The notes under the pieces are model-generated. The model made no database searches. It was not told the origin of the DNA and saw nothing but the letters and a program-made list of their open reading frames with translations. Positions 12,413 to 41,161 of a DNA stretch of 64,000 nucleotides are shown piece by piece. Position 1 is the stretch's first letter; every line of letters starts with the position of its first letter. The stretch comes from Leptotrichia hongkongensis (GTDB lineage: Bacteria > Fusobacteriota > Fusobacteriia > Fusobacteriales > Leptotrichiaceae). The translations under genes and the position numbers were made by a program. The stretch is taken from positions 186,001 to 250,000 of the forward strand of contig NZ_AP019846.1 of NCBI RefSeq assembly GCF_007990635.1, given 5' to 3'.

Positions 12413-12479
12413 ATGTCAATAGAAGTTATAAAATTTTAATTTTTTACTAATGATAGTATGTAATTCAAAATTTATTAAA

Positions 12480-12715
12480 TATTCGCTATTTAAACGGGGA
12501 ATAGTATAAGACATATTAATTAATAATTACTTTTTCTTATTTTAAGTATTTTAATTAAACTATTTGTTGTAGTTAAATTAAAATTGTCGTGATTTTTTGG
12601 AAACAAAAAGTACTGTTTGAGCAAAGCGAGTTTAATTTTTGTTTCCAAAAAATGCTTAGACGAGCGGGGATTGCAAAGGGGATGGCGACTGTTCCCCTTT
12701 GCTTTATAAAAAAAA
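12480..12715. repeat. Palindromic mosaic, copy C (filled site)
   Basis: The rest of the gene-free stretch 12252-12895. At 12480-12512 it has a fragment resembling the right end of the modular repeats. From 12568 a second repeat begins that also occurs at 27143-27197; between its halves lies a 78-base insert (12595-12672), which is a long palindrome with arms TTTTTTGGAAAC and GTTTCCAAAAAA and apex ACTGTTTGAGCAAAGCGAG. A G-rich hairpin GCAAAGGGGA/TTCCCCTTTGC closes it at 12673-12702. Confidence 0.7.
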
Positions 12716-28574: not shown

Positions 28575-28850
28575 ATTAATACTAAATCCCGTTTAGAAAT
28601 AGGAATAAATTTTTATAATAAGGTTGTTTAATAGCAAATTCGTAATTATTCAATTAAATTATTTTTTAGATATTTTGATTAATAAATATTTTTTCATATT
28701 ACTATGTTTTTTCTTTTTTATTTTTGTAGGATTGCTCATTGCCGCAAATCCTACAACCTATGGCTAGTCTATGACATTTTTCCATGCTGACAAAAAACTC
28801 GCTATGCTCAAACAGTTTTGCCAGCACAGAAAAATTCTCCGACGGGTTAT
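28575..28850 (-). repeat. Modular palindromic repeat, copy B1 (core type B)
   Basis: Occupies most of the gap between tyrS and acpS, in reverse orientation. From left it has the terminal motif ATACTAAATCCCGTTTA, the hairpin GTAGGATT/AATCCTAC (28727-28756 region), and the type B palindrome with arms related to CATTTTTCCATGCTGAC and GCCAGCACAGAAAAA around ACTCGCTATGCTCAAACAGT. It lacks the 5' terminal region seen in copy B2. Confidence 0.85.
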
Positions 28851-31620: not shown

Positions 31621-32020
31621 ATTATTAAACCCTATTTAAATAACGAATTTATTACAAACTTTTCTAAGTAAAGGATATAAACCTAATATTTTCAAGTAAT
31701 TTAAGATATAACTTTCATTTTTTAAAAAGAATCTAATATAAATTAATCTGTCGGAGCATTTTTCTGTGTGGGCAAAACTGTTTGAGCATAGCGAGTTTTT
31801 TGTCAGCATGGAAAAATGTCGTAGACTAGCCATAGGTTATTGCGTAGCAATCTTGCCACAATTTTAATTATTAGGATAAATCTTTACTGCAAGATAAGGA
31901 TTTGCGGCAATGAGCAATCCTACGAAAATAAAAAAGAAAAAAGTTGAATGATTATAAATTATCTATTGAACAACCCTATTATAAAAATTTATTTTCATTT
32001 TTAAATGGGATTTAGTATTA
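31621..32020 (+). repeat. Modular palindromic repeat, copy B2 (most complete)
   Basis: A 400-base element filling the gap between the MORN gene and whiA, with no gene. Left end ATTATTAAACCCTATTTAA and right end TTAAATGGGATTTAGTATT form imperfect terminal inverted repeats. Inside are the type B palindrome (about 31757-31822), the conserved TAGCCATAGGTT block, an extra 55-base module containing ATTGCGTAGCAAT and CTTGCC/TACTGCAAG, and the GGATTTGCGGCAATGAGC hairpin. Confidence 0.85.
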
Positions 32021-32161
32021 ATAAAAGTCTGAAAGTCCTTATTTTAACGAAATTTTATAAACAAGTGTATAGGTCTTATAAAAATAGAGCAATAATAAAC
32101 AGCAAAAAGTCAAAAACTTTAATTTAGGAACAGAGAAAAAAATATAAAGAGAGGGGGAAAA

Positions 32162-38470: not shown

Positions 38471-38795
38471 TTATACTAAACCCCATTTAAATGACGAATT
38501 TATTACAAATTTTTCTAATTAAAGGATAAAACTTAATATTTTCAAATAATTAAAATATAATTTTCATTTTTCAAACAGATTCTAGTATAAATGTTCCGTC
38601 GGAGCATTTTTCTGTGCTGGCAAAACTGTCTGAGCATAGCGAGTTTTTTGTCAGTGCATAAAAATGTCGTAGACTAGCCATAGGTTATTGCGTAGCAATC
38701 TTGCCAAATATTTTGATTATCAGGATAAACCTTTACTGCAAGATAAGGTTTTGCGGCAATGAGCAATCCTACGAAAATAAAAAGAAAAATATAGA
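38471..38795 (+). repeat. Modular palindromic repeat, copy B3 (right end missing)
   Basis: Very similar to copy B2 from its left end (ATACTAAACCCCATTTAA) through the type B palindrome (38600-38666), the TAGCCATAGGTT block, the ATTGCGTAGCAAT module and the GAGCAATCCTAC hairpin, then stops matching about 38795. It fills the gap between fba and pyrG, which otherwise contains no gene. Confidence 0.85.
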
Positions 38796-40684: not shown

Positions 40685-40998
40685 TAAACTAACCATTTAA
40701 TATAAACTTTTTCAATAAAGGATAAAAACCTAGTATTTCAAAATAATTAAAATATAATTTTTTTTGTTTTAATAAACCGACGGAGCTTTTATTTGTTCAA
40801 CTACGACTGTTTGACGACTGAAAGGAGGAGTTTCGGAGTTGGGCAAATAAAAGTCGTAGTCTAGCCATAGGTTGTAGGATTTGCGGCAATGAGCAATCCT
40901 ACGAAAAGAAAAAATAAAAAAGTTGAATAATTATGAATTAGCTGTTGAACAACCTTATTATGAAAATTTATTCTCATTTTTAAATGAGGAATAGTATA
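40685..40998 (+). repeat. Modular palindromic repeat, copy A2 (core type A)
   Basis: Lies between the convergent genes pyrG and ptsH. It has the same outer parts as copies B1-B3 (AAAGGATAAAAACCTA on the left, AATGAGGAATAGTATAA on the right), but the palindromic core is type A (40785-40852; arms CTTTTATTTG and CAAATAAAAG, inner ACTGTTTGACGACTG). The extra 55-base module is absent, so TAGCCATAGGTT runs straight into GTAGGATTTGCGGCAATG. Confidence 0.85.
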
Positions 40999-41161
40999 AA
41001 GTATATACTTAGAGAGAGGTTTAGTCTGAAAATAAATAACAAAAAAAAAAGACAATCTTAAAAATAAGAAAGCCTTTTTATTTTTTAGTTTAATAAAACA
41101 TATTTTCTATAACAAATCTATAAAAAACAATATTTTTATTTCACTTAATTACTACAATTTA

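Follow-up and report, generated by a model that had tools for sequence, protein, structure and literature searches.

Organization of the Repeats in the Window

The window is a stretch of 64,000 nucleotides, positions 186,001-250,000 of contig NZ_AP019846.1 (GCF_007990635.1) of Leptotrichia hongkongensis, whose genome (2.28 Mb) is labeled G000 in this study. Five related intergenic repeats, starting at 1598, 28575, 31621, 38471, and 40685, had been reported from this window in an earlier note, and all five were present. Read in the plus direction, a full copy consists of a 5' terminal module (T5), an A-type or B-type long hairpin, the linker TAGCCATAGGT, an optional module M, a small hairpin H, and a 3' terminal module, T3a or T3b. 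T5 is about 100 bp long and starts with TACTAAACCCCATTTAAATAACGAATTTATTACAAAC, the 3' modules close like TTTAAACGGGGTTTAGTA, the long hairpins span 75-90 bp, and M, at 55-60 bp, forms its own hairpin.

The copy at 31621 (B2, plus strand) contains T5 at 31623-31726 (93% match to the module consensus), which bears the same terminal repeat as the IS630 elements of loci L156, L158, and L167. It is followed by the type B hairpin GTCGGAG...CGTAGAC with the loop CTGTTTGAGCATAGCGAGTTT (31750-31826), the linker (31827-31837), M with the stem ATCTTGC/GCAAGAT (31838-31896), H with the sequence AGGATTTGCGGCAATGAGCAATCCT (31897-31921), and T3a (31938-32021, 94% match), which closes with the terminal repeat TTTAAATGGGATTTAGTA. 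The second plus-strand type B copy, B3, lies upstream of pyrG and comprises T5 (38474-38575), the long hairpin (38598-38674), M (38687-38748), and an M-linked variant of H, GGTTTTGCGG (38746-38770); its 3' terminus is lost. Copy A2, also on the plus strand, has a 5'-truncated T5 (40687-40772), the type A hairpin CCGACGGAG...CGTAGTC with its linker (40777-40872), H (40876-40900), and T3a (40917-41000), which is uncommon beside a type A core. The two remaining copies are on the minus strand. B1, which lacks most of the 5' part, contains T3a (28576-28653), an accessory insert segment, INS (28658-28706), H (28728-28752), and the type B hairpin with its linker (28756-28845), whereas A1 is reduced to H (1621-1645) and the type A hairpin with its linker (1648-1741), both termini being eroded.

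As the earlier note had described, the 55-bp module was found in the copies at 31621 and 38471 and was absent from those at 28575, 1598, and 40685. Its description of shared outer parts does not hold for every copy, as only the one at 31621 keeps both termini. Similarly, the arm sequences of the two core types do differ, but the cores are not wholly unrelated: A and B have in common their feet (GGAG...CGTAG), both edges of the loop (TGTYTGA...GAGTTT), the small hairpin, and the linker. A third core type, C, was detected on the plus strand at 12585-12709, with the hairpin GTCGTGATTTTTTGG...CTGTTTGAGCAAAGCGAGTTT...CTTAGAC and the small hairpin GCAAAGGGGATGGCGACTGTTCCCCTTTGC, and an orphan T3b module adjoins it at 12431-12509 (plus strand). 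Hairpins of all three types have strong predicted folds.

Distribution of the Family in Leptotrichia

The small hairpin GGATTTGCGGCAATGAGCAATCC had 56 matches in G000 at three or fewer mismatches and none in the reversed control, indicating that the family is not due to chance; the only named genome with this exact pattern was that of Leptotrichia sp. oral taxon 879. The repeat family, as type B core, was present in 12 of the 13 Leptotrichia genomes searched. A total of 186 A or B cores were counted in 1.1 Mb examined from the genus, 50 of them in the examined part of G000, so that this genome contains at least 50 copies. Almost all cores (177/179) lay outside open reading frames of 90 aa or more, 35 between convergent genes and 7 between divergent genes. 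Our literature search returned no relevant paper on repeats of Leptotrichia. In the draft assembly of G004, runs of N fall within the repeat hairpins (L099, L115, and L143), and at 632600-633400 of G000 (L007 and L021) type B copies immediately precede two adjacent, similar small lipoprotein-like genes.

Terminal Repeats and Mobility

A search for a transposase with matching ends, which the proposal of a miniature inverted-repeat transposable element (MITE) called for, located IS630-family elements in sister species and none with these ends in G000, where the only remnant, identified by DDE_3, bears the ends of another IS630 type. The terminal inverted repeats of the family, TA-CTAAACCCCgTTTAAA, are carried by IS630 elements in two sister species. 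The ends of L156 and L167 (G011) and L158 (G005) match the terminal consensus TACTAAACCCCgTTTAAA with no mismatch at one end and two at the other, and G010 contains a remnant of this same IS630. The matching protein scored 124 bits against NCBIfam transpos_IS630 (cut-off 100) and also matched Pfam DDE_3; it is split between two reading frames at an A9 run, the first part carrying winged-helix domains and the second DDE_3. In L156, this split into HTH and DDE parts suggests that the transposase may be produced by programmed frameshifting. The sequence shared by IS630 and MITE is limited to the terminal repeat, and their inner sequences are not alike. A matching transposase in the same genome is common for MITEs, not defining, and MITEs can outlive their transposase.

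Among 89 end pairs, 70 started with TAC and 82 ended with GTA followed by T, which is consistent with a 2-bp TA target duplication. At orthologous sites, the element was absent or located elsewhere in several relatives, demonstrating insertion polymorphism; among the sites compared, none was both empty and fully clean. The end-to-end units are short (approximately 105-450 bp) and carry no transposase gene. Coreless units, of 138 and 259 bp, also occur; these could have arisen by deletion and need not be precursors. At G000:C1:85776-86117 (L005) and at G002:C1:2442766, a direct repeat of approximately 57 bp flanks the element and is single in G008. A long target duplication was rejected because this repeat was seen at one site only, and IS630 leaves it unexplained. 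A type A copy in G001 (L130, 2288107 and 2289385) is present twice, on either side of an IS5-like insertion, and continues into an IS630 transposase fragment. A second IS630 group (L153, L162, L154, and L155) has ends matching another small MITE, TATAGTAAAAC...TTTTAAATAGGTTTGAGTATA, which is common in these genomes.

Together, the ends and the polymorphism suggest that these repeats can probably be moved by an IS630-type transposase, and we assign a probability of roughly 0.74 to the reading that each complete copy represents a non-autonomous transposon of the IS630 type with a hairpin passenger, remodeled by recombination between copies. In the mechanism that we propose, a trans-acting IS630-family transposase, present in some Leptotrichia species, would cut at TA-CTAAACCCC.../...GGGGTTTAG-TA, and the excised unit would insert into TA sites between genes. 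The passenger would comprise a long hairpin of type A or type B together with the linker and the small hairpin, the 55-bp hairpin module being optional; its type B/C hairpin would be the Leptotrichia version of a hairpin that occurs between genes across phyla, its loop fixed and its stems free. After insertion, copies would be remodeled by recombination with one another, the module being gained and lost through local gene conversion and the 3' modules being swapped now and then. If so, a large repeat family of Leptotrichia is explained by a known route, namely, IS630 ends moved in trans.

The closest known parallel is RUP of Streptococcus pneumoniae, an intergenic MITE of about 100 copies with terminal repeats matching an IS630 and TA at both ends, which is thought to be mobilized by IS630-Spn1 (PMC2229807). 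The Leptotrichia repeat behaves as, and by its ends belongs to, the RUP-like MITEs of the IS630 type, with a putative TA duplication, but it is larger (approximately 300-400 bp when full), has a modular interior in which several types of hairpin occur and one module is optional, finds its matching transposase in sister species rather than in the same genome, and is unrelated in sequence as far as is known. Its modular interior sets it apart from known IS630-type MITEs. BOX of pneumococcus, built of boxA, boxB, and boxC, is likewise intergenic and modular, and its inner module varies, but its sequence probably differs and BOX elements are not known to be bounded by IS630-type ends. CIR of Caulobacter, ERIC, and Correia/NEMIS are also small mobile intergenic repeats with stable hairpins, most with TA ends; however, neither a hairpin with fixed loop and free stem nor module toggling is noted for them in the same source (PMC2229807).

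Exchange of Modules between Copies

The core exchange put forward in the earlier note was mostly not borne out, the core type being tied to the 3' module and stable at orthologous sites. Type A was paired with T3b rather than T3a at 34:5 and type B with T3a rather than T3b at 79:11 (Fisher p = 2e-16). It is thus very improbable that cores are actively swapped in place as cassettes by a recombinase. Such swapping would account for the occurrence of T5 and M alongside both A and B cores, for the 16 of 129 pairs in which core and 3' module are recombinant, and for the site at 1299831 of G000, which carries a type B core in G000 and, with unchanged orientation, a type A core in G004. However, the latter is about the only convincing exception to the conservation of core type at orthologous sites, and the apparent flips proved to be separate or nested insertions.

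What does vary is module M, whose state differed in 42 of 88 same-orientation ortholog pairs in which both copies were type B, and in 22 of 55 pairs under a strict filter, whereas T5 and the core hardly varied. At the pyrG site, the G004 copy has no M yet retains the M-linked H variant; at the 28575 site, the states are reversed, M being absent here and present in G004. Since G004 keeps this variant without M, a short gene-conversion tract is favored over excision. Simple excision of the 55-bp module was also rejected on sequence grounds, because the module-free form is GGTTGTAGG, whereas a deletion would leave GGTTAAGG. We conclude that the module probably toggles by gene conversion. Opposite orientations were observed at several orthologous sites, but in-place inversion of the element was rejected, as the junctions differ or reveal a nested insertion; those at 888541 and 1551097 correspond to separate insertions in the same gap. 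Site 1909325 is best explained by a new copy landing in the end of an older one, whose body would then have been lost.

A Hairpin with a Fixed Loop in Several Phyla

The loop of types B and C conforms to CTGTYTGAGCnnAGCGAGTTT. In a search of 96 Fusobacteriales genomes, it was found in 36, with up to 38 copies, and the reversed controls were near zero. The same loop recurs in Bacteroidota, Bacillota, and Betaproteobacteria, where the stems differ but remain self-complementary, as well as in viral contigs and on plasmids of Ilyobacter, Parabacteroides, Aureibacter, Butyrivibrio, Variovorax, and Enterococcus; in Enterococcus, the matching sites form poor stems and could be chance hits. A similarity search for core B on plasmids gave no match. 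Stems are mostly alike within a genus and unlike between genera, and their arms covary: 24 arm clusters averaged 6.42 of 8 Watson-Crick pairs, compared with 4.36 after the right arms were shuffled (z = 8.9). In G074, both sides of the stem vary (CTGCCA/TGGCAG, TTTCC/GGAAA, and CTGTCA/TGACAG), and G053, G048, and G074 have independent lineage-specific families with the fixed loop. Within the genomes, viral contigs, and plasmids searched, the type A loop occurred in Leptotrichia alone, with no match in 83 other genomes or the viral contigs and no convincing match on plasmids.

No family in Rfam 15 matched the hairpins at gathering or permissive thresholds, and the open papers searched held no relevant mention of the loop sequence. 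A further candidate, the "skipping-rope" RNA, was set aside, as it yielded neither a match in Rfam nor a helpful paper. The fixed-loop hairpin is a cross-phylum family absent from Rfam and from the open papers searched, and it is a more novel point than the MITE. With a chance that we put near, though short of, even, the hairpin with the loop CTGTYTGAGCGnAGCGAGTTT and compensating stems constitutes an uncatalogued class of structured intergenic elements, RNA or single-stranded DNA, whose loop is recognized by a factor and which was captured and amplified by an IS630-type MITE in Leptotrichia, type A being a derivative limited to the genus. A structure recognized through its loop, in either form, is the most likely, though conjectural, reading, and a loop that is kept while the stem is free makes it a testable question what reads this loop and whether the action is on RNA or single-stranded DNA.

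Role of the Hairpin

The earlier note had offered a MITE or a structured RNA. The MITE ends were found, and the second option stands in the broader form of a structured nucleic acid, as the stems are compensatory and G-T mismatches are in excess on one strand. In distinct stems, G-T outnumbered A-C mismatches by 47:17 in type A and 73:26 in type B (one loop column left out). Without selection on one strand, the two kinds of mismatch are expected to be equal. This excess points to folding of one strand, the strand as written; the asymmetry shrinks when positions are counted, and copies that are related do not count as independent. We infer that the hairpin may be kept for a property of this folded strand. 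It is possible, but on balance doubtful, that the core is transcribed into a structured RNA for which the MITE is only the carrier, acting on the neighboring mRNA (stability or processing) or in trans, which is compatible with the MITE explanation. The strand asymmetry suggests folding of the strand as written, the loop is fixed with compensating stems across phyla, and the core changes most slowly at orthologous sites (approximately 2%, versus 5-17% outside the core). On the other hand, the copies have no preference for the sense orientation (55 sense and 79 antisense), the hairpins are not followed by a T-run and match no Rfam family, and gene conversion and palindrome correction could also keep the stems matched.

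We consider it hardly credible that the repeat is an ordinary MITE whose interior is decaying, with a hairpin that plays no role and a loop likeness across phyla that is due to chance. Many copies are indeed truncated or without the hairpin, but the prevalence of the loop among the 96 genomes, the arm complementarity, and the three independent lineage-specific families argue against it. That the repeats are REP/BIME-like, with hairpins recognized by a Y1 (RAYT) transposase that spreads them and with terminal inverted repeats that are incidental, is quite unlikely. The GTAG/CGTC-tagged REPs are intergenic palindromes with tag-like tetranucleotides at the foot, located mostly between unidirectional and convergent genes and away from divergent promoters (PMC3733652), and the unpaired feet GGAG and CGTAG of the Leptotrichia hairpins resemble the unpaired GTAG tag. 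However, these hairpins, at 75-90 nt, are two to four times longer than the 20-40 nt palindromes of REPs, and the loop rather than the stem is conserved. Moreover, the outer ends are accounted for by the IS630 match, and a link to RAYT/Y1 was rejected: Y1 genes were found neither in G000 nor in the repeat-rich G003 and G010, and the fixed loop did not occur within 1.5 kb of any of 30 Y1 loci (99 kb). At four loci (L305, L306, L307, and L172), a second hairpin, CCTTGA.TTTTTGGTTACTTTT...AAAAGTAAC, lies downstream of the fixed-loop hairpin and is common to several phyla.
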